DNA of 47,153 nt from contig JBDRWD010000006.1 of the NCBI GenBank assembly GCA_039802205.1, positions 1 to 47,153 of the forward strand, in the 5' to 3' direction. A program made the translations under genes and the position numbers. The notes under the pieces were generated by a model. The model did no database searches. It saw only the letters and a program-made list of their open reading frames with translations, and was not told where the DNA came from. The DNA is from a candidate division WOR-3 bacterium. Lineage in GTDB: Bacteria > Hydrothermota > Tepidihabitantia > SM23-42 > JAOAFX01. This document shows positions 1-23,194 of this stretch, piece after piece. Positions within the stretch are counted from its first letter, which is position 1. The number at the start of each line of letters is the position of its first letter.

Positions 1-181
1 ATGTGAAGAGAATGGGTTGATTCTTGATGCGATTAGGGCATATGAAGAATCATTAAAATTAAAGCCAAATGAACCTTTAATTCTTAAGTCCCTTTCATTG
101 CTCTATAACAAATATGGACTTGTCGAAATTGGAAATAGGTATCTGGATCGGTATGAGGAACTTACCGGAAAGGAAAAGTGA
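1..181 (+). CDS. C-terminal end of a TPR-like protein (partial)
   Basis: An open frame runs in from the window edge, in the phase starting at base 2, and ends with TGA at 179-181, giving 59 visible residues. The peptide contains AIRAYEESLKLKPNEPLIL followed by a second helical stretch, which is the usual spacing of a TPR motif (large residue, A-x-x-x-Y, KPN turn). Its stop overlaps the GTG start of the next gene (178-181, GTGA), so the two are probably translationally coupled and belong to one operon. The N-terminal part and any fused domain lie outside the window. Confidence 0.7.
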   Translation, partial: CEENGLILDAIRAYEESLKLKPNEPLILKSLSLLYNKYGLVEIGNRYLDRYEELTGKEK

Positions 182-3057
182 AAAACGATTACAAATACAT
201 AAATCTTCAGTTCTCCCTTGATAAGAGGGGATTAAAGGATTCTTTTTTAATAATCTGTTTTCTCTTTTTATTATCTCCTGCCAATGAAATTGATCCAAAT
301 ATCAAAATTGCAGATTCATTGTTCTATGCGGAAGACTTTTCAAAGGCAGAGAGTATTTATAAAGAGATATTAAATTTTGCGCAAGGGATTGATAAAGGAT
401 TGTGTCTTAAAGGGCTTGGTAATATTGTTCTTTCTTTCGGAGACCTAAGTCTTGCAGTAGATTATTACAATCAGGCACTGAATATATTCAAAGAAAATGA
501 TTATTATCCAGGTCAGGCGAAGATTTATTTAAATCTCGGTTCAATCGCCTTTTATCAGGGAGATTTAAAAGGCGCAGAGAATTTCTTTAATAATGCCTTA
601 AAAAATCAGGATTTGATAAAAGAAAAAACGCCGGATGATTTAATGGATGAAATAACCATCCGCATGATGCTGGCAAGGGTCGCCTTATCGAAAAATGAAT
701 ACAATAGTTCAAAGAACAATCTTTTAACCGCAATAGATAAAGCAAAGTCAATAGATTATAAAAAGGGTATTATTGATGGTTATTATTTCCTTGCGAGTTT
801 ATATATCCAACTGGCAGAAGCCGATAGTGCCCTGAAATATTTTAATCAGTCCTGTTCACTTGCACTGGAATTGGGTTATCAAAAAAGTGCGGCAGATGCC
901 TATCGGGAGATGGGTAATATTCATCGCAGGCTCGGTGATTATGACATTGCCTATGAGAATCTATTAAAATCTTTGACCTTACTGGCAGGCATCAAACAGG
1001 AAAAAGAGATTGCACTCGGTGAAGGCGAATTGTTGAACAATTTGGGCACTCTTTATCTTGATATGGGAAAGTATCGTCAGGCTTTGGAGAAGTTCTTATC
1101 AGCATTAGAAATTTTTGATAAAACAGGCAATATTTCCTGGAAGATTGAGGCATTGCAGAATTTAGGCTATACTTACATTTTACTTTCGTCAACAGATAAT
1201 ACATATTTTGATTCCGCATTATATTTTTATGAACTGACAAGACCTTTGTTAAAAGACAAGAAGGATGAGGCACTATTTTATAATAATCTCGGTATTCTTT
1301 ATGAAAAAAAGAAGGATTTTAAACTTGCGCAGGCGAATTACCAAAAGGCATTAAATTTATATAAATTCCTTCAGGATAGTATTGGACAGGCAAAGGTCTA
1401 TTGTAATTTGGGTAACATATTTGTCCTTTCCGGTGATTACAACAAGGGAATAAAATCATATCAGGATGGGTATAATATAATTGAAAATATGAATCGAAAA
1501 GATTGGCAGGCATCAGTTCTATCAAACCTCGGTTTTGCCCAGCACAAGGCAGGGCAGATTGACGAGGCAATAAATTCTTTGACCAAAGCGGTGGAACTTG
1601 TTGAAAACCTGCGCGGCAGGATTGTCAGTCAGGAATTTCGTTCAGCATTCTTTGAAAATAAGATTGTATTATACGAAGAACTCATAAATTTATATTATAA
1701 AATGGGGAATGCAAAAAAGGCATTTGAATATGCAGAAGGCGCCAAATCACGGGCATTTCTGGATTTGATTTCAAATGTGGATATTGCGCAAAAACCCAAT
1801 CTTGACCCAAAGATAAAAGCTTTAATTGAGCAGGAGCAAGTTCTGGAAAAGAAAATTGAATTTCTGGCCGGTATGCCCGAACAGTCAGATGCAATAATTG
1901 AACATAACCGTATAATAAAAGAGCTTTCAGAAAAATTTCCTGATTATGAAGTCTTGAGGTCATCAAAGCCGCTTGATATCAGAAGACTTCAGGCCATTTT
2001 AGATAATCAAACCGCAGTTCTTGAATATTTTATAGGATTGGAAAATGGCTATATCTTCGCGATTACCCATCAGAGGATGGGAATTAAAAAGATGGATATA
2101 AATCCCGCTGAAATCTATGAGAATGTTGATCGTTACCGCAGAGTAATCAGGCGCAGGGTAAACTATGAGGATAATGAACTCGCCGAGATTTCAATGTGGT
2201 TTTATACCAACTTGATCGCCCCGGTAATGCCAGAAATAAGGGATAAGAAAAGACTTTGTATTATTCCTTATGGCATTTTGCATAACCTTCCATTTGCTAC
2301 GATTATGGTAGATAAGGATTCAAAAAAACTTTTGATTGATGATTATGATATATTTTATGCACCCTCGGCGACGGTTTATGAGATTGCACATAATAAAAAT
2401 AAATTGAGAAAAAATAAGTTTGCAATATTTGCCAAATCTGATTTTTCGGAACACCCAGATTGGTTTGATATGCCATTGCCCGGAACAATTGCCGAAAAAG
2501 ACTCGATCTTAAAAACCGGGGGTTTACCAAATATCACAATTTTTGAAGATAAAGATAATTCATCACCCCCGCCTTCAGAGACCAACGCAAAAAAATATCT
2601 AAAGGACTATGACATAATCCATTTTGCTACCCACGGAAAGCTTGCACCAGGCGATTCCGCACTTGAATCAAAGATAATCCTTTCTAAAGATGACGAGAAC
2701 GACGGTGAATTAAGGGTCCGTGAGATATTTAATATGGAGATAGATGCCTATCTTGTTACTCTCTCGGCGTGTGAAACAGGACAATTGCGGGGTTTTTCTG
2801 AAGGTGCATACATTGGTGATGAACTTACTGGCTTAAGTCGTGCCTTTATCTATGCCGGCACCCCATCGGTAATTGCATCTCTATGGAAGGTAAGTGATGT
2901 ATCAACTGCGCTATTGATGGCACAGTTTTATAAGAACTTAAGGGGTGCGGACAAAACAAAGGCGCTATGCGATGCCCAGAGATGGTTGATGAAAAAGGAA
3001 TACTTTGATAAACCATTCTTCTGGGCACCGTTTGTGGTTATCGGTGATTGGCAATAA
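178..3057 (+). CDS. Exported TPR-CHAT caspase-like protein (CHAT paralogue 1)
   Basis: This 959-aa protein has a basic and then hydrophobic stretch around residues 17-35 (SFLIICFLFLLSPA) that looks like a signal peptide or anchor. A long array of TPRs spans about residues 40-490. A linker follows, then a C-terminal CHAT domain (about 650-959). The caspase-like dyad is visible: His819 in HFATHG and Cys865 in LSACETG. The chain ends with FFWAPFVVIGDWQ, a C-terminus shared with the CHAT genes at 8010 and 15515. CHAT proteins are clan CD cysteine peptidases regulated through TPRs, as in HetF or the type III-E CRISPR protease; the substrate here is unknown. GTG at 178 overlaps the previous stop and has GGAAAGGA upstream. 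No other standard in-frame start precedes the hydrophobic stretch. Codons about 12-22 lie in a repeat-like sequence, so the N-terminus may have been altered. Confidence 0.88.
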   Translation: MKNDYKYINLQFSLDKRGLKDSFLIICFLFLLSPANEIDPNIKIADSLFYAEDFSKAESIYKEILNFAQGIDKGLCLKGLGNIVLSFGDLSLAVDYYNQALNIFKENDYYPGQAKIYLNLGSIAFYQGDLKGAENFFNNALKNQDLIKEKTPDDLMDEITIRMMLARVALSKNEYNSSKNNLLTAIDKAKSIDYKKGIIDGYYFLASLYIQLAEADSALKYFNQSCSLALELGYQKSAADAYREMGNIHRRLGDYDIAYENLLKSLTLLAGIKQEKEIALGEGELLNNLGTLYLDMGKYRQALEKFLSALEIFDKTGNISWKIEALQNLGYTYILLSSTDNTYFDSALYFYELTRPLLKDKKDEALFYNNLGILYEKKKDFKLAQANYQKALNLYKFLQDSIGQAKVYCNLGNIFVLSGDYNKGIKSYQDGYNIIENMNRKDWQASVLSNLGFAQHKAGQIDEAINSLTKAVELVENLRGRIVSQEFRSAFFENKIVLYEELINLYYKMGNAKKAFEYAEGAKSRAFLDLISNVDIAQKPNLDPKIKALIEQEQVLEKKIEFLAGMPEQSDAIIEHNRIIKELSEKFPDYEVLRSSKPLDIRRLQAILDNQTAVLEYFIGLENGYIFAITHQRMGIKKMDINPAEIYENVDRYRRVIRRRVNYEDNELAEISMWFYTNLIAPVMPEIRDKKRLCIIPYGILHNLPFATIMVDKDSKKLLIDDYDIFYAPSATVYEIAHNKNKLRKNKFAIFAKSDFSEHPDWFDMPLPGTIAEKDSILKTGGLPNITIFEDKDNSSPPPSETNAKKYLKDYDIIHFATHGKLAPGDSALESKIILSKDDENDGELRVREIFNMEIDAYLVTLSACETGQLRGFSEGAYIGDELTGLSRAFIYAGTPSVIASLWKVSDVSTALLMAQFYKNLRGADKTKALCDAQRWLMKKEYFDKPFFWAPFVVIGDWQ
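211..240 (+). repeat. Repeat family copy A (TCTCC...GGATTAAAGG)
   Basis: The segment TTCTCCCTTG followed by ATAAGAGGGGATTAAAGG resembles two other stretches, at 5665-5695 and 12617-12645. They share a TCTCC arm, a purine-rich return arm and GGATT(AA). This copy lies inside the 5' coding end of the first CHAT gene and encodes about ten N-terminal residues. The similarity was judged by eye. Confidence 0.45.
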
Positions 3058-3073
3058 AAACAAAGGAGGTATA

Positions 3074-3769
3074 ATGAAAGCCATAACCAAAATAATAGCA
3101 ATCTTATTGATTGCTGGTCTCATTATCCCCGGGCTTGTTTATGCCCAAAAAGGTGGTAAGGGTGTCGAGGAGAAGACCGGGTCAGCGCCATTAACAGTAG
3201 AAAAACTTAAATATAAAAATATCCAGGATGAGTTTGATCCGACCTATGATTTTCTTGCCGATATTGGTGAGATGATTGATAATGCACGGCATCAAAAGGA
3301 TGGTTTTGACTTACTTGCTGCTACTCAATTGCTAATGCTTGCAGAGAAGATGTCGGGAAAGAAGAGTTCAGTGATCACAAGCGAGGCATTACTTAATGAG
3401 GTTGGCGAACTAGCAAAAGACCAGAAGAATGCAAAGCTCGCCAAGCTGGTTGCAGAATTTTATACAAATGCAGGGAATAAGACTAAGGCAGATGAGTTTA
3501 CAAAACTTGCCAAAGATTATGAGGCACTTGCGGGCACAACCCGTGGTTATTGCTGGGTTCGAGTTAATAATTATTCATCGTGGACGGTAGATGTTTATAT
3601 TGATGGTTGGTATAAGGGGACGCTCTCACCGGGGTATTATTCTTACTTCAAAATCTGGGAAGGTTATACAAAGCTCTATGCGGAAGGTACTTATACTGAT
3701 TACTACTGGGGTCCGATTTATCGTGACATCGGTGAAGGCGAAACATTTACCTGGAATCTCTGGGATTAA
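3074..3769 (+). CDS. Secreted protein of unknown function with C-terminal beta-rich domain
   Basis: This 231-aa protein starts at ATG 3074. The ideal AAAGGAGG at 3062-3069 decides the start, because the open frame itself extends further upstream into the previous gene. Residues 1-24 form a clear signal peptide (KAITKIIAILLIAGLIIPG, then VYAQ). The middle (about 45-165) is alanine/lysine-rich and helical. The last 60-70 residues are rich in Tyr, Trp and Gly, with a pattern VYIDGWYKGTLSPG and a closing GETFTWNLW. That looks like a small beta-sandwich or PEGA-like surface domain. It follows the CHAT gene by 16 nt and is probably cotranscribed. I do not recognise the family. Confidence 0.8.
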   Translation: MKAITKIIAILLIAGLIIPGLVYAQKGGKGVEEKTGSAPLTVEKLKYKNIQDEFDPTYDFLADIGEMIDNARHQKDGFDLLAATQLLMLAEKMSGKKSSVITSEALLNEVGELAKDQKNAKLAKLVAEFYTNAGNKTKADEFTKLAKDYEALAGTTRGYCWVRVNNYSSWTVDVYIDGWYKGTLSPGYYSYFKIWEGYTKLYAEGTYTDYYWGPIYRDIGEGETFTWNLWD

Positions 3770-3779
3770 ATCAAACAGC

Positions 3780-3806
3780 GGGGGCACGGTAGAACCCCGT
3801 GCCCCC
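3780..3806. repeat. GC-rich perfect hairpin just upstream of the M48 gene
   Basis: GGGGGCACGG at 3780-3789 is perfectly complementary to CCGTGCCCCC at 3797-3806, with a 7-nt loop. It lies in an otherwise AT-rich intergenic gap and ends at base 3806, directly against the AGGAGG ribosome binding site (3807-3812) of the next gene. There is no U-tract, so it is not a typical intrinsic terminator. It may be a dispersed palindromic repeat, an mRNA stabiliser or a translational brake on the protease gene. Confidence 0.75.
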
Positions 3807-3816
3807 AGGAGGAATT

Positions 3817-5538
3817 ATGAATAAAGTTGTTCATCTTATTTTTTTTATCCTAATATTCTCAAATGCCCAACAAATTGGTCCAGGTCCTTCGTTTATCATT
3901 AAAGCAAGCGAGGATGCTGCAAAACAAATAGAAAAAGCAACTGGCTTAATAAATGATACGATTCTTGTTAATCGTATAAAACCTATTGCCCAAAATGTTA
4001 TGCGAGCATCAGATTTGAGAACAGTTTTTGAATGCAAGATATTAAATACTGATGCCATAAATGCCTTTGCCTTGCCTGCAGGGCCTATTTATGTAACATT
4101 AGGATTGATCACAGTCATTGATTCATTAAAAACGGAGGAAAGCCAGTCAATGCTCGCAGGTATTCTGGGACATGAACTTGCCCATATCTACCTGCGCCAT
4201 TCAGTTGCGATGTTGCGACTGGAGAATTTTATCAAGGTCGGAACTTCCTATATCCCTGAAGATGTTGCACAAATTTTACAGAGAGGCTATAGCCGTGAGC
4301 AAGAATTTGAAGCCGATGAATACGGCGTAATCTATGCAATGCGGGCAGGCTACGATTTTGAATCAATTATAAAGTTTTACAAAAAAATGCGTGAATTATA
4401 TGGCGAAACCCCACCTGGGGATGAAAAATATAACGACCATCCCCGTGCCACCGAGCGTATTGCAAGACTATACGAAGTTCGAGCACAGATTGAGCGGGAT
4501 TTTGACCAGTGGTATTTTGGTGTGGAGGCATTGAAAGAAGGTCGGTACAACGATGCAATAAAGTATTTTAAATTATTCACCACCACTTTTTCCAACAGTG
4601 CCTGGGGCTGGACGAATTTAGGGACTGCCTATTTATTTGAAGCGATGTCAAAAATGGAAAATCCCCCTGTGTTATTTATGACTGTTTATTACACCGAACC
4701 ATCTTTTCGGTTAAGGGGTGAGCCTGATGAATTATTGTATGCGGAAGAGGCTTTTAAAAAGGCGTCTGAAATGGATACCACTTATAATATTGTTTATTAC
4801 TCTAACATGGGAATAATCTATGCCTTACGCAAGAAATATGATCAGGCGATTGAGTATACCAAAAAGGCCCTGGAAGGTAAACAGGCAGAACATTTTTTCT
4901 ATAATAATTTAGCAAATATCTTATTTCTTAAGAAAGAATATTTAGAAGCAATTGAGTTGTATAAAAAAGCGATAGACATTAATCCTGATTGGCCGATGCC
5001 TAAATACAATCTTGCTATTACCTATGAAACTATTGATAGAAAAGATCTTGCAATAGAAATGTGGAAAGAACTACTTGATGTTTCGGGTTATAATAAAGAG
5101 GCAGTAAAGCACCTTTCAAAACTAAATAAGAAGTTTAAATCTTCAAAAGATAAAATCCAGCCTGAAACTCAAATTGGCGGTATTAGTATCGGAATGTCCG
5201 AAGATAATGTTCGGAAAAACTTAGGAGAACCCGATGATCAAACTGTGCTTGAGAAAATGACTGCTTTGGAATATTCAACAAAAAATCTTGTAATATTTAT
5301 CAGGGAAGGTAAAGTGAGCGGCATTCTTGCACGTGTAGGTTTTTCAGAAAAGACAGCAAAGAATATCGGTATCGGTTCGTCTATCAACGATGTTCGTAAT
5401 GTCTATGGCCTACCTGATGACATTGTCCAGCAAAAGAATGGTGAGCAATGGGTCTATGGCAAATACGGTCTGCTCTTTAATATCTATGAAGGCACAGTCA
5501 GTCAATTTCAGATTATTGAGGCATCAAAAGATGGTTAA
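3817..5538 (+). CDS. Secreted M48-family metalloprotease with TPRs and two BamE-like modules
   Basis: The start is ATG 3817, placed 4 nt after AGGAGG; a GTG further up lies inside the hairpin. The product has 573 aa. Residues 1-18 are a signal peptide. The peptidase domain (about 35-225) has the zinc motif HELAH at 119-123 and the third ligand Glu in EFEADEYG (163-170), as in M48 BepA/YfgC and LoiP proteins. TPRs follow (about 235-445). The C-terminus (about 455-573) has two SmpA/OmlA/BamE-like units, each beginning with a GISIGMSEDNVRKNLGEP or IGIGSSINDVRNVYGLP type signature. BepA-type proteins are periplasmic quality-control proteases of outer-membrane assembly. The BamE-like tail is unusual for that family. 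Its position among the CHAT genes suggests a shared role in the envelope. Confidence 0.9.
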   Translation: MNKVVHLIFFILIFSNAQQIGPGPSFIIKASEDAAKQIEKATGLINDTILVNRIKPIAQNVMRASDLRTVFECKILNTDAINAFALPAGPIYVTLGLITVIDSLKTEESQSMLAGILGHELAHIYLRHSVAMLRLENFIKVGTSYIPEDVAQILQRGYSREQEFEADEYGVIYAMRAGYDFESIIKFYKKMRELYGETPPGDEKYNDHPRATERIARLYEVRAQIERDFDQWYFGVEALKEGRYNDAIKYFKLFTTTFSNSAWGWTNLGTAYLFEAMSKMENPPVLFMTVYYTEPSFRLRGEPDELLYAEEAFKKASEMDTTYNIVYYSNMGIIYALRKKYDQAIEYTKKALEGKQAEHFFYNNLANILFLKKEYLEAIELYKKAIDINPDWPMPKYNLAITYETIDRKDLAIEMWKELLDVSGYNKEAVKHLSKLNKKFKSSKDKIQPETQIGGISIGMSEDNVRKNLGEPDDQTVLEKMTALEYSTKNLVIFIREGKVSGILARVGFSEKTAKNIGIGSSINDVRNVYGLPDDIVQQKNGEQWVYGKYGLLFNIYEGTVSQFQIIEASKDG

Positions 5539-5572
5539 TGGGTTAGGGTTGAGATGCTGGCAAGTATAGGGA

Positions 5573-5695
5573 AAGGCTTCAGCCTTGCTTTTTGGAAGAG
5601 CAGAGTCCACTCCGTCGGAGTAAGGTTTTATTTCCATAAAAATGGAAAATTTAAGAGACTCTCGCTCTCCTTTCCCTTGAAGGGAGAGGATTAAG
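5573..5695. repeat. Mosaic of four short hairpins in an intergenic gap
   Basis: The gap 5539-5716 holds four inverted repeats in a row. AAGGC-TTCA-GCCTT is at 5573-5586 and ACTCC-GTC-GGAGT at 5609-5621. TTTCCAT-AAAA-ATGGAAA is at 5631-5648. The last, at about 5665-5688, is an imperfect palindrome (CTCTCC...CCCTTGAAGGG...AGAG) followed by GATTAAGG. The first resembles the GCAAGGC-TTTC-GCCTTGC hairpin at 37081. The last is copy B of the repeat also seen at 211 and 12617. These look like REP-type elements. No T-tract follows any of them, so none reads as a clear terminator. Confidence 0.7.
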
Positions 5696-5716
5696 GTGAG
5701 GGTGAAAGGAGATATG

Positions 5717-7687
5717 ATGTCTACTCGACAGTATTTTATCTTTTTTGCGTTAACTGTTGCATTTGGCTGGTCTACCAAAGTTGATATTGCCCAGGAATAT
5801 TTTCTCAAGGGCACTGAGTTCTACACTGCCCAAGAATATACAAAGGCGGTTGAACAGTACTATAATGCAGTTAAACTTGAGCCTACAAATGGGTTGTATA
5901 GATTATCCCTCGCTGGTGCCTATGGAAAGAATAAACAATATGCTGAAGCCTTACCCCATTTGAAAAAGGCTGTTTTGTTTGATACGACACTCATTGATGC
6001 CTATTATCTTATAGAAGATTTTTACGCAAAACTCGGTAAAGAAGATTCTGCCATTGCGTATTTTAATGAAGAAAAAAATCTCCATCCGCAGAGGGCAGTT
6101 ATTTATATTAATCTCGGGCATCTCTATTATAGAAAAAAAGATTTCAATAAAGCCGTCCAGGAGTTTTATCAGGCACAGACCTTTGAACCGAATAATCCGG
6201 TAATACAATGCGGTCTTGGGGTGGTAATGCTTGCCCAGGGTGATGACAGCACTGCTGAAGAATTCTTCTTAAATGCAATAAGACTTGATTCGCTATATCC
6301 TGAGGCACATTTGTATTACAGTATAATCTTGGAAAGAAAAGGAATGATTAAAGAAGCAGAAAAGGAGCGCAACCTTGCCTATCAGTTAAAGCCCGAGTTG
6401 AAAGAGGTTGATTTGAGTGGTGTTCTGCCGATCCGGGGAGAAAAGGCAGATATCCCGTTTATTGTATCAACCCTTGATATAATTGTCCAGAAACTTATCA
6501 GACCTGAAGAGCGGCTTGCAGAAATGGTGAGGAAGCCTTTTGATTTGAACTTGGGGACCGGGTTGACAACAATCAATAAAGAAAAGTGGTTATCTATCAA
6601 ATCAAGGCCAGCAATGGAAACGAAATGGTTTGGATTCAATCTCGCATTTGATTTTCTTGTCAATCAAGACAGTATCCGCACTAAAGAGTGGGATTATAAA
6701 AAGATATTCCAGAGTGTGAGGATTGGACATCCAAATCTGCCGTTCTATGTCGGAACCGGCGCAATAAGCAATTATACACTCGGCTATGGATTGATCGTGC
6801 GTGATTATTTCAACCAGGCAGATGAAAATAACCGAAAGATGGGCGGGGTCTTTACCCTGCAAACAAAGGATAATGCAATTGGTATTACCGGAATGGTAAA
6901 CAATCTTTCACCAATGGAGGTTACAATCGGCAGGGCGTATCTTGGGAAATGGGCACAATCTTTAGAAGACCTTCTACAGAGAATGGAATTGGGATTCACC
7001 TATGCCCAGGATAATGAATATGAATATAAGGTTTTGGGTGGTGATTTACTATTTTATCTCACTTCCCGCGGTTCATTCCATTTTCTTATTGCCAGTGAAT
7101 TTGCCAAGACACTCGAACACGGTTATGGCAATGTGTCAGGATTATTTGTGCAATTAGGTGGAATGAGAAAATCAGATGTTTCTTTATCGTTATATGGTGC
7201 AGGATTGATTTTAGGGAAAGATTTTGAACCAGCGCCATTCGATGCATTCTACGAAAAAAAGCGAAAACAATATGGCGCAGATCTTGTGAATGTGGTTTTG
7301 AGTAAATATGATAAAAATACAAATGGATTTTACGGTTCCGGTAGTTTGAATCTCGGTGTAGTTTTAAAACTCTCAGCCGACTATCAGAGTGTATCTGGTG
7401 TTGATTCAAGCGGGCTTTTTTCCGCACGGATTGCTGTGGCAGATGATGAAAATATTCCGATAATTTTGCGTGGGGTATTCTACAAATATAACTTTGACGA
7501 CTTCAATACCCTGACTAAAATGGATGAGAATACCTATCTCGCCGGAATTGCGGGTTTAAAATTCTTTAAAGGACTCTTCTCAATAAATCTGCTCTATGAA
7601 AGAACTTATGTCTGGAATGAAGAGATGGGGAATTACGAAACTCAAGAAAGGATTTCACCCCATATTCTGTTTAACAAAAGTTTTTAA
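5717..7687 (+). CDS. TPR protein with predicted outer-membrane beta-barrel-like C-terminus
   Basis: I chose ATG 5717 (656 aa) because AAAGGAG at 5705-5711 is at a good distance from it. ATG 5714 is close behind, and GTG 5696 lies in repeat sequence. Residues 1-20 are a signal peptide (QYFIFFALTVAFGWS). About six TPRs cover residues 20-235. The remaining 400 residues alternate hydrophobic and polar residues, with many aromatic and Gly positions (FDLNLGTGLTTINKE, FGFNLAFDFLV, GLFSINLLYERTYVW), as in beta-barrel outer-membrane proteins. The chain ends in Phe (NKSF), also common for barrels. TPR-barrel proteins can act in surface assembly or export, but I cannot name the family. The next gene starts 2 nt downstream. 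Confidence 0.8.
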   Translation: MSTRQYFIFFALTVAFGWSTKVDIAQEYFLKGTEFYTAQEYTKAVEQYYNAVKLEPTNGLYRLSLAGAYGKNKQYAEALPHLKKAVLFDTTLIDAYYLIEDFYAKLGKEDSAIAYFNEEKNLHPQRAVIYINLGHLYYRKKDFNKAVQEFYQAQTFEPNNPVIQCGLGVVMLAQGDDSTAEEFFLNAIRLDSLYPEAHLYYSIILERKGMIKEAEKERNLAYQLKPELKEVDLSGVLPIRGEKADIPFIVSTLDIIVQKLIRPEERLAEMVRKPFDLNLGTGLTTINKEKWLSIKSRPAMETKWFGFNLAFDFLVNQDSIRTKEWDYKKIFQSVRIGHPNLPFYVGTGAISNYTLGYGLIVRDYFNQADENNRKMGGVFTLQTKDNAIGITGMVNNLSPMEVTIGRAYLGKWAQSLEDLLQRMELGFTYAQDNEYEYKVLGGDLLFYLTSRGSFHFLIASEFAKTLEHGYGNVSGLFVQLGGMRKSDVSLSLYGAGLILGKDFEPAPFDAFYEKKRKQYGADLVNVVLSKYDKNTNGFYGSGSLNLGVVLKLSADYQSVSGVDSSGLFSARIAVADDENIPIILRGVFYKYNFDDFNTLTKMDENTYLAGIAGLKFFKGLFSINLLYERTYVWNEEMGNYETQERISPHILFNKSF

Positions 7688-7689
7688 CG

Positions 7690-8013
7690 ATGTATCCTCT
7701 GTGTAAGAATTGCAACAAAGAACTTTCACATAGTGGAAAGCATATATCAATCCTTTTGATAAATGGCAATGAAGAGACATTCGTCCTTTGGTATTGTTCC
7801 AATTGTAAGAAATATTTTATCCTCGGCTATGAAGATGTCTTTATATCCGCCGATGAAGAAAAAGAATGGTTTTATGGAGAGTATAGTGAAGAAGATTTTA
7901 AGAGATTGGAAGAAATTATAAATAAATGCCCCGACCCATCTGATAAATTCTGCCGCTGTGATGCACATAAATATTTCTATAGATTCATTTATGGAAAGGA
8001 TATGGAAGAATGA
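7690..8013 (+). CDS. Small zinc-ribbon-like protein
   Basis: This 107-aa protein has Cys pairs CKNC near the N-terminus and CSNC in the middle, plus a C-terminal group PDPSDKFCRCDAH. The arrangement suggests one zinc ribbon formed by the two CxxC knuckles, with a further Cys/His cluster. It has no signal peptide, unlike most of its neighbours, so it is probably cytoplasmic. It is packed between the previous stop (2-nt gap) and the next ATG (ATGA overlap at 8010-8013), which implies translational coupling to the giant CHAT gene. Function unknown; a regulator, adaptor or assembly factor are possibilities. Confidence 0.75.
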   Translation: MYPLCKNCNKELSHSGKHISILLINGNEETFVLWYCSNCKKYFILGYEDVFISADEEKEWFYGEYSEEDFKRLEEIINKCPDPSDKFCRCDAHKYFYRFIYGKDMEE

Positions 8014-12605: not shown

Positions 12606-12616
12606 TTTTCGTTCAA

Positions 12617-12645: not shown

Positions 12646-12670
12646 ATTTTATATATCCTAGGAGGTATCT

Positions 12671-13852
12671 ATGAAAAGATATAAACGATCTCCAAACTTT
12701 TCGGGTTTATCCCGGATGATGCTTTTGGTGGTTTTGGTTTCCGCTGCAGGGTTATTATTTGCCCAGACACTTCCAAATTTACCAGAGCTTATTCCATATC
12801 GTAAAGGTGATAAGTGGGGATTCTGTGATAGGAATGAGAAGATAGTAATAGAATGTAAGTATGATGGTGCATTGAGTTTTTCCGAAGGACTCGCAGGTGT
12901 TAAACTAAATGATAAATGGGGCTTTATAGATAAAACGGGTAAAGAGGCGGTCCTCCCAAAATATGATTTGGTAAGGAATTTCTCTGAGGGATTGGCGGCT
13001 ATAAAATCGGATGGCAAATGGGGATATGTAGATAAAACCGGAAAAATGATAATTCCACCCCGATATGATGGAGCCTGGAATTTTTCCGAAGGTCTGGCGG
13101 TGATTGAATTGAATGGGAAATGTGGCTATATCGATAAAAGAGGTAAAGAGGTGATACCAATAAAATACGATCGTGCTTTTCCTTTTTCCGAAGGTAAAGC
13201 AGTGGTTGCAGTTGGGGACCTAAGTGCCAGATATGGTTATGTTGATAAGACAGGTAAGGAGGTAATTTCCTTAAGATATAATAATGCCTTGCCTTTTTCC
13301 AAGGGGCGTGCATTAGTGCAATTGAATAATAAATGGGGATATATCGATGCCAATGAAAATGAGCAGTGGGAAGGTGTATCTTCCAGTTATAACATATTTG
13401 ATGTGGTGAGCTATGGAAAATATGCCGAAAGGTTCAGGGTGGAACTTGATATTCAAACGCTTTATAATGTTGCAAAATGGGAACAGATTGAGAAGTTCAT
13501 AAATTCAAATAAAGACTTTTTTTATAATTTGGGTATAATTAGTATTGAATCAAAAGGCGATGTTAGATATTTGCAGAACTTGTTGAATGAAAAATTAAAA
13601 TTTCTTGGATTTATTATCGAGACTGATGGGATCTTTGGAGTTGAGCTGTATGCCGCTTTAGAGATGTTGATAAAGATGAGAAAATTAGGTTTAGAAAATG
13701 TTAAAAATGTGGAAGAGTTACAAAAAGAATTGAACACGAGAATAAGCGAACAGGGAGCGCAAGATACCCTAAAAATAGATGGAATATTTACGAGCAAAAC
13801 TATGGAGATAATAGAAGATCTTTCAAAAATACAGGATGATAAAACAAAATGA
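12671..13852 (+). CDS. Secreted WG-repeat protein with two peptidoglycan-binding-like motifs
   Basis: This 393-aa protein starts at ATG 12671, 5 nt after TAGGAGG. A signal peptide ends near LLFAQT (about residue 34). Six WG repeats cover about residues 45-235 (KWGFCD, KWGFID, KWGYVD, KCGYID, RYGYVD, KWGYID). After a linker, about 297-335 shows the PG_binding_1-like pattern: DVRYLQNLLNEKL, then DGIFG and helix residues. A second, weaker copy is at about 346-390 (VEELQKELN, then DGIFTSKTMEII). Such domains usually bind peptidoglycan, which would hold the WG sensor in the periplasm. The first WG unit is almost identical to that of the next gene, so the two are duplicates. The domain call is by motif only. 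Confidence 0.82.
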   Translation: MKRYKRSPNFSGLSRMMLLVVLVSAAGLLFAQTLPNLPELIPYRKGDKWGFCDRNEKIVIECKYDGALSFSEGLAGVKLNDKWGFIDKTGKEAVLPKYDLVRNFSEGLAAIKSDGKWGYVDKTGKMIIPPRYDGAWNFSEGLAVIELNGKCGYIDKRGKEVIPIKYDRAFPFSEGKAVVAVGDLSARYGYVDKTGKEVISLRYNNALPFSKGRALVQLNNKWGYIDANENEQWEGVSSSYNIFDVVSYGKYAERFRVELDIQTLYNVAKWEQIEKFINSNKDFFYNLGIISIESKGDVRYLQNLLNEKLKFLGFIIETDGIFGVELYAALEMLIKMRKLGLENVKNVEELQKELNTRISEQGAQDTLKIDGIFTSKTMEIIEDLSKIQDDKTK

Positions 13853-13895
13853 TTATTAAACCTGAAGCAATTAATTTGAAAATAAGGAGGAAGTT

Positions 13896-15506
13896 ATGAA
13901 AATTCTAAAACAAATTTCTTTTTTTTCGAGTTTATCCCGAGTGGTTAATTCAATGTTTTTTATTACCCATGCCGGCATCTTATTTGCTCAAACCATTGTT
14001 TCGCAACCACCCGAACTTATTCCTTATCGCAAAGGCGATAAATGGGGATTCTGTGATAGGAATAAGAAGATAGTGATTGAATGCAAATATGATAATGTCT
14101 GGAAATTTGATGAAAAAACGGGTCTGGCAATGGTGGAAAGAAATGAAAAATTTGGATACATTGATAAATTGGGAAAAGAAGTTGTGCAATTGAAATATGA
14201 TGAAGTAGGTTGGTTCGCCGAGGGATTGTTTGTGGCACGATTACAGGATAAATTTGGTTTCGTGAATAGTGAAGGGCAGGAGGTCATTCCGCCTCAATAT
14301 GAGGAGGCGATTGGATTTTCTGATGGTCTTGCCGCTGTGAAACTCAATGGCCGCTGGGGCTATATTGATAAAACGGGTAAGGTTGTAATTCCTTTTAATT
14401 TTGATATTGCAGAGAGTTTCATCAAGGGTGTGGCACGGGTTAATATTAACGGAAATTACACTTATATAAACAGGGATGGAAATTCAATTCTGCCAGATGA
14501 CTGCTGGGAGGATCGTCATCGTAATTCTTATTTTGGTGATTATATAATCGTTTACAAAGAAATGGTTGATGAATATGGATATAGAGAGATAAAATATGGA
14601 TTGTTCAATAAACAAGGGCATAAAGTTTTACCTTGTGAATTTGACCTTATTGAATCAATTTCCGAAGGTAGGATAATTTTTTTCAAGGAATACATGTTGG
14701 GAATTGCGGATACAAACGGAAAGATAATCCTTGAACCCAAATATAATGATGATGACCATTATATTGCTGAAGAAGAATATAAATTTTCTGATGGTATGAT
14801 GCGGATATGGCAGGATGGAAAATATGGGTTTATAAATAGAATGGGAAAAGAGACCATTCCGCCTAAATATGATGATGCACACCATTTTTTTGAGGGATTG
14901 GCCGCGGTGAAGTTAAATGATAGATGGGGCTTTGTAGATACCACGGGTAAAGAAGTGATTCCGTTGAAATACGATTTTGTTCATAATTTCTCTCAAGGAT
15001 TGGCACCAATCGGCAAAGGTAAAAAATATGGATTGATTAACAAAAAAGGTGAAGAAATCGCCAAACCGATATATGAAGAGATTGGCTTGGTTGGCAATGT
15101 AATCGCATTAAAACAAAACAAATGGGGTTTTATTGATAAAACAGGCAAAATTGTGCAAAATTTTCAATATGATGATATAAAAATATATGAAGATGGATAT
15201 GCGGGAGTATTAAAGAGTGGTCTATGGGGGATTGTTGATGGAAATGGGAAGGAAATTGTATCGCCGAAATACGAACAACTGCCGGGTGTGGAAGATGGAT
15301 ATTTATATACCGACCAGAAATTATTTTATGAAAATATTGCGCGTGTTTCAAAAAATGAACTCTGGGGCTTTATTGATATTATGGGTAAAGAAATTGTCCC
15401 TCCTAAATATGAATCTGCTCATGACTTCAGTCAGGGGCTTGCCGAAGTAGTTTTTGAAGGTAAGAGTGGTTTTATTGATGCCCTGGGCACTGAGTACTGG
15501 AAATAG
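13896..15506 (+). CDS. Secreted WG-repeat protein
   Basis: A 536-aa protein from ATG 13896, preceded by a strong AAGGAGGA site. A hydrophobic signal region (about 14-32, ending AGILFAQT) is followed almost entirely by WG-type repeats, about 14 by eye (KWGFCD, KFGYID, RWGYID, KYGFIN, RWGFVD, KYGLIN, LWGFID and others). Some have lost the Trp-Gly pair (NYTYIN, MLGIAD). No catalytic domain is present, and the protein ends one repeat after LWGFIDIMGKE. It probably works as a binding or scaffold protein beside the CHAT proteins. The next gene begins 8 nt after its stop. Confidence 0.85.
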   Translation: MKILKQISFFSSLSRVVNSMFFITHAGILFAQTIVSQPPELIPYRKGDKWGFCDRNKKIVIECKYDNVWKFDEKTGLAMVERNEKFGYIDKLGKEVVQLKYDEVGWFAEGLFVARLQDKFGFVNSEGQEVIPPQYEEAIGFSDGLAAVKLNGRWGYIDKTGKVVIPFNFDIAESFIKGVARVNINGNYTYINRDGNSILPDDCWEDRHRNSYFGDYIIVYKEMVDEYGYREIKYGLFNKQGHKVLPCEFDLIESISEGRIIFFKEYMLGIADTNGKIILEPKYNDDDHYIAEEEYKFSDGMMRIWQDGKYGFINRMGKETIPPKYDDAHHFFEGLAAVKLNDRWGFVDTTGKEVIPLKYDFVHNFSQGLAPIGKGKKYGLINKKGEEIAKPIYEEIGLVGNVIALKQNKWGFIDKTGKIVQNFQYDDIKIYEDGYAGVLKSGLWGIVDGNGKEIVSPKYEQLPGVEDGYLYTDQKLFYENIARVSKNELWGFIDIMGKEIVPPKYESAHDFSQGLAEVVFEGKSGFIDALGTEYWK

Positions 15507-15514
15507 TAATTTTT

Positions 15515-18500
15515 ATGTTAAACTTCTTGTTTTTGCTGTTATTTAGTCAGGCAAATCTAAAAGAAAAAGCCGATAGCCTTGATAAAATAGTTGCCGAGCA
15601 GATAAAATCCGGCGATTTTGAAAATGCCCTTAAAACTGCTGAAGAATTGCTCACGGTGTATGAAAAAATAGGTGAGAAGAAAAATATCTCGGATTGCCTG
15701 GCAACGATTGGTTTTATCTATGGAAAGCTCAATGATTTTGATAAGGCATCAGAATTGTATAATCAGTCACTGGAGATTAAAAATGCAATTGCTGATTCAG
15801 CTGGAATCCTCGAGGTTCTATTCTTGAGTGGTGTTTTATACAAAGATTTCAAAAGATTCAAAGAATCCGCTTCTAATTTCGAAACGGCACTTTTGCTTGC
15901 TGAGAAATTAAAACAAATCTCTTTAAAAAAATCCATTGTCTTTGGTTTGGCACAAGATTATTTTGAAATTGGTGAGATATTTCTAAAAGAAGAAGAAAAG
16001 GATTCCGCCGAATACTATTATCTAAAGGCGATAGATAATGCAAAAATCGTAAATGATACTATCACATTAATTCAGGTATACCATTCGCTCGGTGCAACTT
16101 ATGTCTATCTTTTTAATGACTCACACCGAGGTCGTAAGGCATACCTTAATGCATTACAATTGTATCATATTATCAAAGACCGAGAAGGTGAGGTTGATCT
16201 TCTCAATGATTTATGCGAATCATATTTTGTAATACCAGATCATAGCATTGCCTCGGGTATTGAGTATGGTAAGAAGGCTTTATCCCTTGCCGATTCAATA
16301 GATTATTTAGATGGTTATTCGACAGCATCAGAAAACCTCGGTGATTTGCACCGGATTTTAGATAATTTCTATCAATCTGCCGAATATTATAATCAATGCC
16401 TTGAGACATTGAAAAAAATAAATGACAATTGGACCATGGCACGCATTTTATATAAAATTTCAAGATTGTATTTTGAGTATATGCCAGCAGATACAACCTT
16501 GAAAATATGTCGCATCGGTCAAAATGTTGCTCAGGAATCAAATAATCAGGATTATTTAAAACTGATTCTTGGCATTGAATATCTTGTTCATAGCCGAAGA
16601 TATGATTATGATAATGCAATCAAGACGAAAGAGAAATTGCTTGATATTTATCGTTCTGAAGATAATACAAAAGAATTAGTAAATACGCTTATTGACTTAG
16701 CAAATGCCTACTTGAATAAAGATGATTATAAAAAATTTAAGACCTTGTATACCCAAACGGAAACCCTTATTCAAGAAATAAATTATATTGAAGGTGAAGT
16801 AAAAATACTGATGTTAAAGGGCGAGTATTATTTAAAGAATGAAAAAACAGATTCACTTATTGCTTTGGCAGATATTATTTTTCCGAAATTATCAAAAGTT
16901 GAAGATAAAGAGTTGATTTCTGATGTTTACAACTGGCTAAGCTCGGTTGCATTTGTGATTGGGGATTTTAAAAAATCAATAGAATTATTGGAAAATGGTT
17001 TAAAGATTATTGATGGGGCAATATCAGCAATTAATACCCGAGACCAGATTGCAATTATTAAAAAGCAGAGTTTATATTCGGCAAAATCTTATCTTCTTTT
17101 AAATACAGGTGTTCTTTATCAAAGCATTGGTTTTTTGCAGAAGGCAGAAGAATTTTATAAGAAGGCAATAAAAATAGCCAGAGAAGAGACAGGGGAAAAA
17201 GATTTTACAAAATTCCATACCAACCTTGCCCTGGTTTATCTACAAACCGGCGACTACGAGCAATTCAATAACTATTTAAATGATGTAGAAATGGAGAATT
17301 TTAAAAATCAAAATACTGAGGGGCAGGCGTTCGTGCTACAATTGCGCAGTATTGAAATGATAAAAAAAGGTCAGTGGAAAAAGGCAATTGAATTCCTTAA
17401 AAGGGTAGATAGTTTAAAAAGCAAGCCGAATCTTTTGTATCCATTCCTCCTCGGCATTGCCTATCGCGGCGATGGTGATTATAAAAATTCTTTATTAATG
17501 TTTAACAGGGCACTAAAATCACCAGAAACGTCATACTCGCCACAATTGCAAGGGATTATTATGACCGAAATCGGAAGTGTATCCCTTGCCCTGAACGATT
17601 TGAATAATGCAAGATGGTTTTTTGAATCGGCGCGTAAAAGTTTTGATATAATAGACACAACATATAATACAGTTGAACTGGAAATGGGGTGGGCAGCCCT
17701 TGCCCTTAAAAACAAAGATACAATTAACGCCATTCCCCATTATAAAAAGGCAATCCAGATTGTGGAACGGGTTTCCGCAAATTTATCAAATGATTTAATG
17801 AAGGTCGCGCTTGCCAGTAGTGGTGTGAGCGCCTATGAAAAGCTCATTGAGATTATGCTTGCCCGAAAGGATTATGCCGAGGCATTCAATTACTCAGAGC
17901 GAAGCCGTGGTCGGGCATTCCTGGATTTGCTTGGGACCGCCGAATTAAAGTTGAAACCCGACAATAGGCTTTATATGAATGAAATAAAAGAGAAAGAGAC
18001 GAAACTTGCCTTTTTAAGTGGTGATTTAAAGATTGGAGAAAAGAAGATTTCAGGACCAGAAATAAAGGATATTCAATCAAAGATTATAGAGATAAGAAAA
18101 GAGATAGAGAGGACTAGACCGGAGATTGCTTCTTTTGTTTCGGTTCAGGCAGTGGGTTTAAAAGAACTTCAGAATTTAATAAAAAACGAAATTATAATTG
18201 AATATTATTTTATTGGCGAAGAAGGTTATGTATTCTTAATCAGCAATTCAAATATTGAAGTTTTTAATCTCACAAAAAGATACTCTGAAATTTCAAATCT
18301 TTGTGAATATTTTCGGTCTTCTTTGATGAAAACACAACCACCTTTTGATCAAGAATTTTATGAACCAGCAAATGAATTATACAACATTCTGATTGCACCG
18401 ATAATCGATAGAATCACCAATCATAAAACATATGTTGTTCCTTATGGTGTGCTCCATTATCTGCCGTTTAATGCCCTTTATGATGGAAAAAATTTTCTTA

Positions 18501-19177
18501 TTGAGAACACAGAAGTCTGTTATCTACCCAGTGCCAGTGCATTAAAATTTCTTCGGAGTGAACCCGATAAAAAAGAAGACAAAAAACAATTCTTGGGCAT
18601 TGCCAATCCGGACCTTGGTGATACAGCATTATCGCTCAAATTTGCAGAAGAAGAAGTAAAAACGATTGCCCCGCTTTTTATTGCCAGCAAGGTTTTCTAC
18701 AAAGGTGAGGCATCAGAAGGTAAAGTTGTATCATACGGCAAAGATTATGATATCATCCATTTTGCCTGTCATGGTATATTCAATGAGAGTAAACCACTTT
18801 ATTCGGCGTTGTTATTGTCAAAAGATAGAGAAAATGATGGTAGACTTCAGGCTTACGAACTTTTTGGAATTGAATTGAAAGAGGCAGATTTAATTGTCCT
18901 CAGTGCCTGCCAGACCGCGCTTGCCCGTTTGACAAAAGGTGAGGATTTGATTGGATTATCAAGGGGATTTTTCTATGCCGGAACTCCATCGCTTGTGGCA
19001 AGTTTATGGAAGGTAGATGACCAATCCACCGGATATTTGATGTCACAATTTTATAAAAATTTGAATAGGGGAATGGATAAGGCGGTAGCATTAAAGAATG
19101 CACAAATTGTAACGAAAGAAAAATTCCCCCACCCCTTCTTCTGGGCACCGTTTATATTGATAGGGGACTGGCGATGA
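15515..19177 (+). CDS. Exported TPR-CHAT caspase-like protein (CHAT paralogue 3)
   Basis: A 1220-aa protein beginning MLNFLFLLLFSQA, a short signal-peptide-like segment. There is no good Shine-Dalgarno; the start lies 8 nt after the previous stop. TPR-like helices fill residues 15-800 (for example FGKLNDFDKASELYNQSLEI-type units), grouped in at least two arrays. A linker helix region (about 800-880) leads into the CHAT domain (about 890-1220). The dyad is His1086 (HFACHG) and Cys1132 (LSACQTA). It ends FFWAPFILIGDWR, almost the same as paralogue 2, and the similarity of the two genes appears to continue slightly past the stop codon. Expected activity: cysteine endopeptidase with TPR-controlled access; target unknown. 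Confidence 0.88.
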   Translation: MLNFLFLLLFSQANLKEKADSLDKIVAEQIKSGDFENALKTAEELLTVYEKIGEKKNISDCLATIGFIYGKLNDFDKASELYNQSLEIKNAIADSAGILEVLFLSGVLYKDFKRFKESASNFETALLLAEKLKQISLKKSIVFGLAQDYFEIGEIFLKEEEKDSAEYYYLKAIDNAKIVNDTITLIQVYHSLGATYVYLFNDSHRGRKAYLNALQLYHIIKDREGEVDLLNDLCESYFVIPDHSIASGIEYGKKALSLADSIDYLDGYSTASENLGDLHRILDNFYQSAEYYNQCLETLKKINDNWTMARILYKISRLYFEYMPADTTLKICRIGQNVAQESNNQDYLKLILGIEYLVHSRRYDYDNAIKTKEKLLDIYRSEDNTKELVNTLIDLANAYLNKDDYKKFKTLYTQTETLIQEINYIEGEVKILMLKGEYYLKNEKTDSLIALADIIFPKLSKVEDKELISDVYNWLSSVAFVIGDFKKSIELLENGLKIIDGAISAINTRDQIAIIKKQSLYSAKSYLLLNTGVLYQSIGFLQKAEEFYKKAIKIAREETGEKDFTKFHTNLALVYLQTGDYEQFNNYLNDVEMENFKNQNTEGQAFVLQLRSIEMIKKGQWKKAIEFLKRVDSLKSKPNLLYPFLLGIAYRGDGDYKNSLLMFNRALKSPETSYSPQLQGIIMTEIGSVSLALNDLNNARWFFESARKSFDIIDTTYNTVELEMGWAALALKNKDTINAIPHYKKAIQIVERVSANLSNDLMKVALASSGVSAYEKLIEIMLARKDYAEAFNYSERSRGRAFLDLLGTAELKLKPDNRLYMNEIKEKETKLAFLSGDLKIGEKKISGPEIKDIQSKIIEIRKEIERTRPEIASFVSVQAVGLKELQNLIKNEIIIEYYFIGEEGYVFLISNSNIEVFNLTKRYSEISNLCEYFRSSLMKTQPPFDQEFYEPANELYNILIAPIIDRITNHKTYVVPYGVLHYLPFNALYDGKNFLIENTEVCYLPSASALKFLRSEPDKKEDKKQFLGIANPDLGDTALSLKFAEEEVKTIAPLFIASKVFYKGEASEGKVVSYGKDYDIIHFACHGIFNESKPLYSALLLSKDRENDGRLQAYELFGIELKEADLIVLSACQTALARLTKGEDLIGLSRGFFYAGTPSLVASLWKVDDQSTGYLMSQFYKNLNRGMDKAVALKNAQIVTKEKFPHPFFWAPFILIGDWR

Positions 19178-19347
19178 GATTTTCCCAAAATTCCTTTTTT
19201 CTATTTGTCGTTAACCGCTATACCGGTAAAATTATTCAAAAAATTAAACTTGATAGTGCCCCGGAGACGATGATTGTAAAAGGTAAAAAACTCTATGTTC
19301 GGACATACAATCGCGATTATATCTTTGCAATAAAAGAGGGAATGTAG
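19174..19347 (+). CDS. Mini-ORF resembling one terminal blade of a PQQ-type beta-propeller (possible remnant)
   Basis: A 57-aa frame starts at an ATG that overlaps the CHAT stop (ATGA, 19174-19177) and ends at TAG 19345-19347. The peptide contains NRYTGKIIQKIKL, then KGKKLYVRTYNRDYIFAIKEG. This is the strand pattern of the closing blade in PQQ/YVTN-type beta-propellers. One blade cannot fold as a propeller, so this is either a remnant of a deleted gene joined to the CHAT 3' end or a small coupled peptide. No stop interrupts the frame. Confidence 0.45.
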   Translation: MRFSQNSFFLFVVNRYTGKIIQKIKLDSAPETMIVKGKKLYVRTYNRDYIFAIKEGM

Positions 19348-19439
19348 TATCTTGATAAAATGCTGCCATTTCATGATTGTTTTTTGCAAGATAATTACCA
19401 ATTGGTAAGTTTTCTTGACAGGAATAAAGGGAGACAATA

Positions 19440-20009
19440 TTGATTGATGAAAAATCTCCACCTCCCCAAATTAATGCAGTAAGGAGACCTTCAAATGATA
19501 TTGTGCCTGACCAGGGGGCTAATCTAAAGAAAGATATTATTTTCCGAATGGAAGCAAAGGCAAATTATTTGATTTTTACGAATCTCGGTGGCATCATCTT
19601 GGGGGGGATATTGTTATTTATTCTCTTGTCTTTACGCAATTTATATACCACTGCCATTTTTCTTATCGGGTTTGTCATACTGGTACTTTATATGGTGATA
19701 GATTTTCTTATCTGGTTGCAAAGGGGAATCAGGGCTATTGAGATAGATAAAAGCGGAATAAATTTCTACCGGGGGAAAGAAAGAAGACTGGTTAGGATTA
19801 ATAAAGAACAAATAACTGGTATTGATTTTTTTACAAAACTGGGTCGGCGCATAGTTACAATTATGATTGGAGGCAAGGTAATAAAGCCTACAGCATATAT
19901 CACCCTTTTTAGTGGACCACGAATAAGGATTGCAGATGATTCTTTCAATGATGGCGATTTTTCTGCGTTTGTTGAACTACTAAAGAAATTTCAATCCGAC
20001 CTTAATTAA
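19440..20009 (+). CDS. Two-TM membrane protein with PH-like cytoplasmic domain
   Basis: This 189-aa protein starts at TTG 19440, supported by AAAGGGAG at 19426-19433 with a 6-nt spacer. A hydrophilic N-terminal tail of about 45 residues precedes two hydrophobic segments (LGGIILGGILLFILLSL, about 50-66; TAIFLIGFVILVLYMVIDFL, about 70-90). The soluble C-terminal part (about 97-189) has the strand pattern IEIDKSGINFYRG...RINKEQITGIDF typical of bacterial PH-like (bPH/YcxB-type) domains. It is separated from the CHAT genes by a 92-bp gap and may end that transcript. Function not known. Confidence 0.7.
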   Translation: MIDEKSPPPQINAVRRPSNDIVPDQGANLKKDIIFRMEAKANYLIFTNLGGIILGGILLFILLSLRNLYTTAIFLIGFVILVLYMVIDFLIWLQRGIRAIEIDKSGINFYRGKERRLVRINKEQITGIDFFTKLGRRIVTIMIGGKVIKPTAYITLFSGPRIRIADDSFNDGDFSAFVELLKKFQSDLN

Positions 20010-20126: not shown

Positions 20127-20132
20127 TTGTCG

Positions 20133-23191: not shown

Positions 23192-23194
23192 GCT

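Follow-up and report, generated by a model that had tools for sequence, protein, structure and literature searches.

The conserved unit at this WOR-3 locus consists of four genes, encoding in order an MtxA-like protein, a TPR-CHAT protein (CHAT1), a small exported-type protein (sm1) and a protein that joins TPRs to a predicted beta-barrel (TPR-barrel). A survey of 147 WOR-3 genomes found this core in nine, with a distant family among them. The locus opens a stretch of 47,153 nucleotides from genome G000 (hereafter the window). The first-pass annotation had described it as a candidate envelope proteolysis and surveillance system of CHAT, WG-repeat and M48 proteins; that set is not a conserved unit, and the surveillance role is not supported.

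Gene content and conservation of the locus

The genes form a co-directional run with three CHAT domains, an M48-TPR protein, a TPR protein with a predicted beta-barrel, and WG proteins, most bearing exported-type N-termini (Table 1). The run begins upstream of the window, whose opening 181 bases are the 3′ end of the MtxA-like gene. Because the contig end cuts this gene, the partner was invisible to the first-pass annotation, which also did not single out sm1.

Table 1. Features of the locus, with positions in the window
Feature	Position	Strand	Evidence or remark
MtxA-like exported protein, C-terminus (TPR end)	1..181	+	Profile A4, matches G000:C6:5-178, E 2.9e-21
CHAT1, exported-type TPR-CHAT peptidase family	178..3057	+	PF12770, E 5.9e-57
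sm1, 231-aa exported-type protein	3074..3769	+	Full length in 8 CHAT1 genomes only
Strong RNA hairpin without U tract	3779..3807	+	Just 3′ of sm1 stop
M48 metallopeptidase with TPRs	about 3799/3817..5538	+	Peptidase_M48 and TPR matches
TPR domain and predicted outer-membrane beta-barrel, C-terminal Phe	5696..7687	+	TPR match at N-terminus
107-aa cysteine-containing protein without signal sequence	7690..8013	+	Genus-level accessory; missing from this place in G002
CHAT2: 7 WG repeats, HEAT, TPR and CHAT	8010..12605	+	PF12770, E 3.5e-59
WG-repeat protein A, exported-type N-terminus	12671..13852	+	WG repeats
WG-repeat protein B (WG_B), weaker exported-type N-terminus	13896..15506	+	WG repeats
CHAT3: TPR-CHAT	15515..19177	+	PF12770, E 1.7e-69
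Predicted membrane protein, hydrophobic segments, no signal peptide	19440..20009	+	Present in 13 genomes
TolC, HlyD, ABC and MacB-type exporter genes	20127..24433	+	3′ of locus in G000 and G002, not G001

Full-length sm1 (eight genomes) and full-length TPR-barrel (seven genomes) are confined to genomes with CHAT1. In family f2, CHAT1, sm1 and TPR-barrel occur together in the same 2 of 23 genomes, and they behave as a block, since in four f2 genomes without them the MtxA-like gene adjoins the genes that follow TPR-barrel in G024. Conservation of the neighborhood among relatives, named beforehand as the test of the earlier proposal, was thus found for CHAT1.

The M48 and WG proteins, previously taken as integral parts, fared differently. 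The M48 gene is present at the locus only in G000–G003 and G008, five genomes of one order whose M48 proteins share 59–74% identity outside the near-identical pair G000/G001, and it is missing between sm1 and TPR-barrel in G024 and G073; it is an add-on of that order. Its product has the Peptidase_M48 and TPR matches expected from its first description as BepA-like, but at 84 bits against the 570 required by the NCBIfam equivalog M48_BAM_BepA, membership of the BepA group is ruled out. It resembles this outer-membrane assembly protease in combining M48 with TPRs behind an exported-type N-terminus, and differs in its extra C-terminal region and its place outside the conserved core. Both separate WG-repeat proteins recognized earlier are present, and CHAT2 itself has seven WG repeats and a HEAT region. 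WG repeats are found in 51 of the 147 genomes and, among the loci read, lie beside CHAT in family f1 only; G008 has the full core and zero WG repeats. Both observations rule out WG proteins as integral sensors. Of the 13 genomes with the predicted membrane protein from the end of the run, 4 have it next to a CHAT gene or a gene derived from one. The TolC/HlyD/ABC/MacB-type exporter genes are not part of the core. The extra CHAT genes, M48, WG proteins and MacB-type exporter are best explained as lineage-specific additions.

CHAT1 and its proposed MtxA-like partner

All three CHAT proteins match PF12770 with 194–235 bits (cut-off 24), and theirs are the only CHAT domains of the genome. Their His/Cys motifs are intact, as first noted: HFATHG/SACET in CHAT1 and CHAT2, HFACHG/SACQT in CHAT3. 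H819 and C865 of CHAT1 are invariant in eight aligned orthologues from families far apart, and the CHAT1 clade, spanning nine genomes, is monophyletic (support 100/99). By family and dyad, CHAT1 would be a caspase-like peptidase that cuts proteins. Seven of the nine genomes have a second CHAT gene, of a different family, at this locus. G008 has a CHAT2 relative without WG and a CHAT3 relative at the matching place, while in G002 the CHAT3 orthologue retains its TPRs but no longer has a CHAT domain. Recent tandem duplication was ruled out as the origin of the three proteins, which fall in separate old clades of the tree.

The MtxA-like gene, with its stop codon TGA at 179–181, overlaps the CHAT1 gene, with its GTG start at 178, by 4 nt. 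This gene lies directly 5′ of CHAT1 in every genome whose contig extends that far, with an overlap of 4 nt or 1 nt everywhere but in G002, where a short gap separates the two. The protein is about 316 aa long in relatives, and positions 18–310 of 317 in profile A4 (seven sequences) match residues 17–301 of the magnetotaxis protein MtxA (PDB 4z29) with E 3.8e-6; the Pfam MtxA Ig-like and C-terminal domains score 19.7 and 16.4 bits, below their cut-offs of 26 and 27. The two proteins are alike in size, signal sequence, beta, Ig-like and TPR regions and this near full-length match, but the genomic partner of Magnetospirillum MtxA is a CHASE2-cyclase (PMC4439547), whereas that of the WOR-3 protein is a CHAT peptidase, and the WOR-3 host is not known as magnetotactic. 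No CHASE2-cyclase gene lies next to the MtxA-like gene at this locus, although one adjoins the MtxA-like gene of G139 (L101). Magnetospirillum cells lacking mtxA showed no visible phenotype (PMC4439547). The gene arrangement suggests that the MtxA-like protein contacts CHAT1.

An MtxA-like gene also stands beside a TPR-CHAT gene in all 12 cyanobacterial plasmids viewed, nine of which carry a filamentous-haemagglutinin (TPS) gene alongside the pair; in one, an ShlB-type transporter gene overlaps the CHAT gene. These loci resemble the WOR-3 locus: the MtxA-like/CHAT pair lies next to a gene for an exported protein and, on one plasmid, also a gene for an outer-membrane barrel. They differ in their mostly convergent gene order, in the adjoining kinase and NB-ARC genes, and in having TPS/ShlB in place of sm1 and TPR-barrel, neither of which was seen beside the pairs in the plasmids viewed. 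Conversely, none of the locus genes of the window matched PF05860, PF03865 or POTRA of two-partner secretion (TPS). We found no open-access literature linking CHAT with FecR, CHASE2 or cyanobacterial haemagglutinins.

sm1, TPR-barrel and predicted export

We consider sm1 a previously undescribed small exported protein. Its predicted structure comprises a helical domain and a C-terminal seven-strand beta sandwich. For sm1 no PDB fold match was obtained at E ≤ 0.001; the weaker hits, with E 5.4e-3 at best, were to generic beta sandwiches. The sequence is up to 95% conserved, showing no diversification in the alignment. The sm1 alignment yielded no conserved cleavage site; a conserved arginine between the domains was considered and set aside, as it does not fall in a single alignment column across all sequences. 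Codon usage gives no clue to whether sm1 is highly expressed, as ribosomal genes are also without codon bias. A hairpin directly follows sm1 in all eight genomes that have it, with a sequence that differs between them and z of −3.2 to −7.3; none of 14 other junctions exceeds −1.7 in strength. In G000 its pattern has a single match in the genome, which rules out a dispersed REP-like repeat as its source. A sigma-70 consensus at 3048–3075 overlaps the ribosome-binding site and start of sm1 and was treated as chance.

The TPR-barrel protein bears out its earlier description, with a TPR N-terminus and a predicted barrel; the TPR half is well modeled and the barrel half has low confidence. In comparison with Slam and other TPR-barrel exporters it reaches 27.5 bits for TPR_Slam (cut-off 35.2).

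Export was judged by a heuristic of N-terminal hydrophobicity, with TolC and LptA of the window as exported references and Mfd, HisC and PyrG as cytoplasmic ones. The CHAT, M48, TPR-barrel, sm1 and WG proteins have hydrophobic exported-type N-termini (WG_B weakest, 1.88) of the short type seen on TolC and LptA, and the known cytoplasmic proteins score below them. Signal peptides, earlier assigned to nearly all members, are supported by this heuristic for these proteins and not for the 107-aa protein or the terminal membrane protein. From these N-termini, export of the locus proteins is strongly indicated. The same heuristic places an exported-type N-terminus on 9/9 CHAT1 orthologues, so CHAT1 is not predicted to be cytoplasmic. 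Signal sequences are found on most WOR-3 CHAT proteins and on the named cyanobacterial ones; predicted exported TPR-CHATs are the rule in the phylum and are present in cyanobacteria too. For this reason the premise that known CHAT proteases are cytoplasmic fails, and HetF itself is a divisome membrane protein with a single TM segment (PMC8406250).

Proposed function and alternatives

We tentatively propose, as a possibility somewhat short of an even chance, a four-gene envelope protease module in which an MtxA-type partner and TPRs control CHAT for limited cleavage of a co-encoded exported protein. The exported partner would have a beta domain, an Ig-like domain and TPR, and the peptidase would be translated from the next, overlapping gene. 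Most likely the MtxA-like protein and TPRs would keep the peptidase inactive or place it; a periplasmic or outer-membrane cue would lead it to cleave, in a limited way, an exported protein encoded with it. The best candidate is sm1, as substrate or effector, which might then be released, activated or displayed, with TPR-barrel as a putative docking site or portal. In cyanobacteria the partner is a TPS exoprotein, so the step with a co-encoded substrate is proposed by analogy.

A close characterized parallel is Craspase (Csx29/Csx30, type III-E CRISPR), which shares TPR and CHAT, the His/Cys dyad and a peptidase gene adjoining a dedicated partner or substrate gene; the TPR-CHAT Csx29 makes a single cut in the neighboring gene's product (PMC10028731). 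The WOR-3 CHAT proteins differ in being of exported type. Membership of the Csx29/Craspase family was rejected (NF041237, 40 bits versus the NCBIfam cut-off of 300), the PDB match reaches only E 0.016, and the Pfam search of window genes returned no Cas family. HetF of heterocyst-forming cyanobacteria likewise combines CHAT and TPR and is membrane-associated, and the portion of the source consulted describes no comparable partner genes for it (PMC8406250).

Several other readings were weighed against limited cleavage. Exported TPR-CHATs could work chiefly as platforms to which an MtxA-type sensor binds, cutting proteins hardly or not at all. CHASE2-cyclase genes beside MtxA in Magnetospirillum (PMC4439547) and beside its relative in G139 favor this, as do the cyanobacterial kinase and NB-ARC neighbors and the G002 orthologue stripped of its CHAT domain; a pure scaffold, however, need not keep the His and Cys that are invariant in CHAT1 orthologues of distant families, and we think this reading unlikely. 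In envelope quality control, as first suggested, CHAT and M48 would break down damaged proteins of the outer membrane and WG proteins would act as sensors. Peptidases of the caspase fold typically make limited cuts, which argues against this reading, as do the absence of M48 between sm1 and TPR-barrel in G024 and G073, the M48 protein's distance from the BepA cut-off and the dispensability of WG in G008. Even with several exported-type peptidases in a single run and an M48 gene conserved in five genomes of one order, it appears distinctly unlikely.

Least probable, in our judgment, is a conflict or defense role in which an exported CHAT effector cleaves sm1 as a toxin or pore-former against invaders or neighbors. 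Patchy gain and loss of the module as a block and the plasmid location of the cyanobacterial copies are consistent with it, and CHAT domains do occur in defense systems, in Csx29 and in DGR loci (PMC10907252). Yet sm1 is highly conserved without diversification, no immunity-like gene was recognized, and PADLOC returned only generic TPR models with weak BovA/WGR_XIII matches at the locus, the BovA-like ones in CHAT proteins, no specific defense system, and nothing in sm1.

A broader extension of the limited-cleavage module, which we regard as doubtful, is that MtxA-type proteins are dedicated envelope partners of exported TPR-CHATs, the pair forming an unrecognized processing system for surface-exported proteins in Gram-negatives that would serve TPS in cyanobacteria and sm1/TPR-barrel in WOR-3. 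CRISPR is the setting in which characterized CHAT proteases of bacteria are best known; those that are exported are common and unstudied, and WOR-3 is a candidate phylum known mainly from sequence. The locus offers a compact testable set of peptidase, MtxA-related partner, dedicated candidate substrate and outer-membrane protein. MtxA has a crystal structure, and if the MtxA-CHAT link is true, MtxA-type proteins would gain their first partner, a hint that the surface of bacteria is a site of caspase-like processing.

A conserved core around CHAT1

The module lies on a contig of 75,948 bases in a 2.65-Mb genome; the window takes up the first 47,153 of them. CHAT, M48, TPR, and WG domains were found as the first-pass annotation described, and the three CHAT domains, the only ones genome-wide, all keep the His and Cys motifs claimed for them. 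An outer membrane in the source cell is indicated by genes for LptA, LptC, and a receptor-type outer-membrane barrel, also in the window.

Features of the window and of loci viewed in other genomes
Feature	Positions	Description
CHAT1	178-3057
sm1	3074-3769	small exported-type protein
sm1 hairpin	3779-3807
M48	3817-5538	M48 protease
TPR-barrel	5696-7687	TPR, predicted outer-membrane beta-barrel
Small protein	7690-8013
CHAT2	8010-12605	WG, HEAT, TPR, CHAT
WG proteins	12671-13852, 13896-15506
CHAT3	15515-19177
Small membrane protein	19440-20009	predicted
Signaling genes	24534-34806	GGDEF-AAA-TPR, cyclase-AAA, TPR, with a TRCF/Mfd-like gene between them
L032, uncultured Bacteroidales	2990-5815	941-aa WG-repeat protein
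L051, G009	4897-9594	CHAT protein
L072, G016	10351-10914	187-aa exported-type protein
L096, Acaryochloris plasmid pMB04	1212-8217	two exported-type TPR-CHAT proteins
L101, G139	5793-8469	CHASE2-cyclase, MtxA-like genes
L105, G002	2161-3870	CHAT3 orthologue

CHAT occurs in 38 of the 147 WOR-3 genomes compared, and CHAT1 orthologues form a single clade (support 100/99) in nine: G000 (the window's genome) to G003, of one family, G008 and G024 of family f2, and G073, G074, and G076 of family f16, which is related to the other families only at phylum level. Wherever the contig extends far enough, an MtxA-like gene lies immediately 5' of CHAT1 (its final 181 bases fall in the window), with its stop overlapping the CHAT1 start by 4 nt in G000, G001, G003, G008, and G024 and by 1 nt in f16; a short gap separates the two in G002. 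Immediately 3' of CHAT1, sm1 is full length in eight genomes, each with CHAT1 (the G076 contig stops within CHAT1), and seven genomes, each with CHAT1 and sm1, have a full-length TPR-barrel, barrel-only relatives of which exist elsewhere. Among the 23 f2 genomes searched, CHAT1, sm1, and TPR-barrel all occur in the same two; for two independent 2-of-23 sets, kinship ignored, the arithmetic chance of coincidence is 1/253. In G017, G018, G022, and G023, the MtxA-like gene instead adjoins genes that G024 has 3' of its TPR-barrel, so that CHAT1, sm1, and TPR-barrel behave as a block in gain or loss. The neighborhood is thus conserved in G000-G003, G008, G024, and f16; the module is real, conserved, and probably located in the envelope, and its core is MtxA-like, CHAT1, sm1, and TPR-barrel, unlike the three-CHAT, WG, and M48 set first proposed.

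The four MtxA-like loci without CHAT (L098 in G018, L099 in G017, L100 in G023, L102 in G022) have an adjacent gene for a lipoprotein-like protein of about 357 aa, and three add a response-regulator gene and a gene for about 320 aa; all of these recur in G024, 3' of the TPR-barrel.

The WG and M48 proteins, previously counted as parts of the system, are additions to this core, since M48 stands between sm1 and TPR-barrel only in G000-G003 and G008, and G008, with the full core, has WG repeats nowhere in its genome and a CHAT2 relative without the WG part. Of the 147 genomes, 51 encode WG repeats; among the CHAT loci read, these flank or are fused to CHAT in family f1 only. A second CHAT gene, of differing families, is present at the locus in G000, G001, G002, G003, G008, G074, and G076. 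The G002 CHAT3 orthologue has kept its TPRs and lost its CHAT domain; a membrane-protein gene and then TolC-HlyD-ABC-MacB genes follow it as in the window, an arrangement absent from G001. The signaling genes just downstream in the window are neighbors that might belong to the module. Elsewhere, the G009 CHAT protein has an N-terminus resembling a Ser/Thr protein kinase and no signal sequence, and the Bacteroidales protein resembles the WG part of CHAT2, with no CHAT motif found in it.

Probable export and cyanobacterial counterparts

Export was judged solely from N-terminal hydrophobicity (10-residue Kyte-Doolittle window), which is 3.51 for CHAT1, 3.36 for CHAT2, and 2.58 for CHAT3, compared with 2.60 and 2.54 for the exported TolC and LptA and 2.18, 1.91, and 0.56 for the cytoplasmic PyrG, Mfd, and HisC; CHAT3 and TolC share a short, uncharged N-terminus type. 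The near-universal signal peptides of the first-pass annotation appear to hold for the CHAT proteins but not for the small proteins 3' of TPR-barrel and CHAT3, in which this measure found no secreted-type N-terminus. Overall, these N-termini strongly suggest export of the module proteins.

Of the 317 positions in a profile built from seven upstream proteins, 18-310 matched crystallized MtxA (4z29; E 3.8e-6). In MtxA, a signal peptide is combined with a beta region, an Ig-like domain, and TPRs, and a CHASE2-cyclase gene lies 3' of the MtxA gene (PMC4439547); in G139, an MtxA-like gene likewise adjoins a CHASE2-cyclase gene, with the cyclase gene coming first. The G139 protein weakly matches DUF928 (E 5.2e-5), a hint of possible kinship between MtxA and DUF928.

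With the G008 MtxA-like protein as query, 41 plasmid records matched, nearly all cyanobacterial. Twelve neighborhoods were viewed, one (plasmid record H42) picked with its nearby CHAT already known and eleven without such knowledge. A TPR-CHAT gene lies next to the MtxA-like gene or two genes off in 12/12, which are not 12 independent events because the plasmids are related to each other. The pair is convergent in 11 of the 12, with ends overlapping in most, and a filamentous-haemagglutinin (TPS) gene is beside or near the CHAT gene in nine; the Fischerella CHAT gene also overlaps a gene for a ShlB-type transporter. Without a functional link, the presence of the pair in two phyla, in differing gene orders, is difficult to account for. 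Most CHAT proteins at these and other cyanobacterial loci begin with a signal sequence, which overturns the premise that known CHAT proteins are cytoplasmic; exported CHAT proteins as such are not new. On pMB04, both TPR-CHAT genes lie after a CHASE2 gene, and ahead of each stands one of two copies (72% identical) of an undescribed exported-type protein of about 260 aa.

sm1 and a possible mechanism

The predicted sm1 structure combines a helical domain and a seven-strand beta sandwich (pLDDT about 80-90 in both), with weak PDB matches. Its C-terminal domain also occurs without the rest of sm1; the G016 protein, from a genome without CHAT, has two in tandem. Directly 3' of the sm1 stop, 8/8 genomes have a strong hairpin, differing in sequence (z -3.2 to -7.3; -1.7 or weaker at 14 other junctions), with no U tract; its pattern has a single match in the G000 genome. 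The hairpin points to protection of the mRNA 3' end or to attenuation, either of which would yield more sm1 than downstream products. In codon usage, even ribosomal genes lack the bias that would mark high expression.

Csx29, which cuts a neighboring gene's protein once via H615 and C658 (PMC10028731), offers a model for CHAT1 by analogy. For the module itself, the gene set, its coupling, the dyad, and the conservation are shown directly, and its substrate, trigger, and purpose are inferred. The most likely activity of CHAT1, by analogy with Csx29, is limited cleavage of a co-encoded exported protein, for which sm1 would be the leading candidate; the MtxA-like protein would be a putative partner, and the TPR-barrel a possible docking site or portal at the outer membrane.
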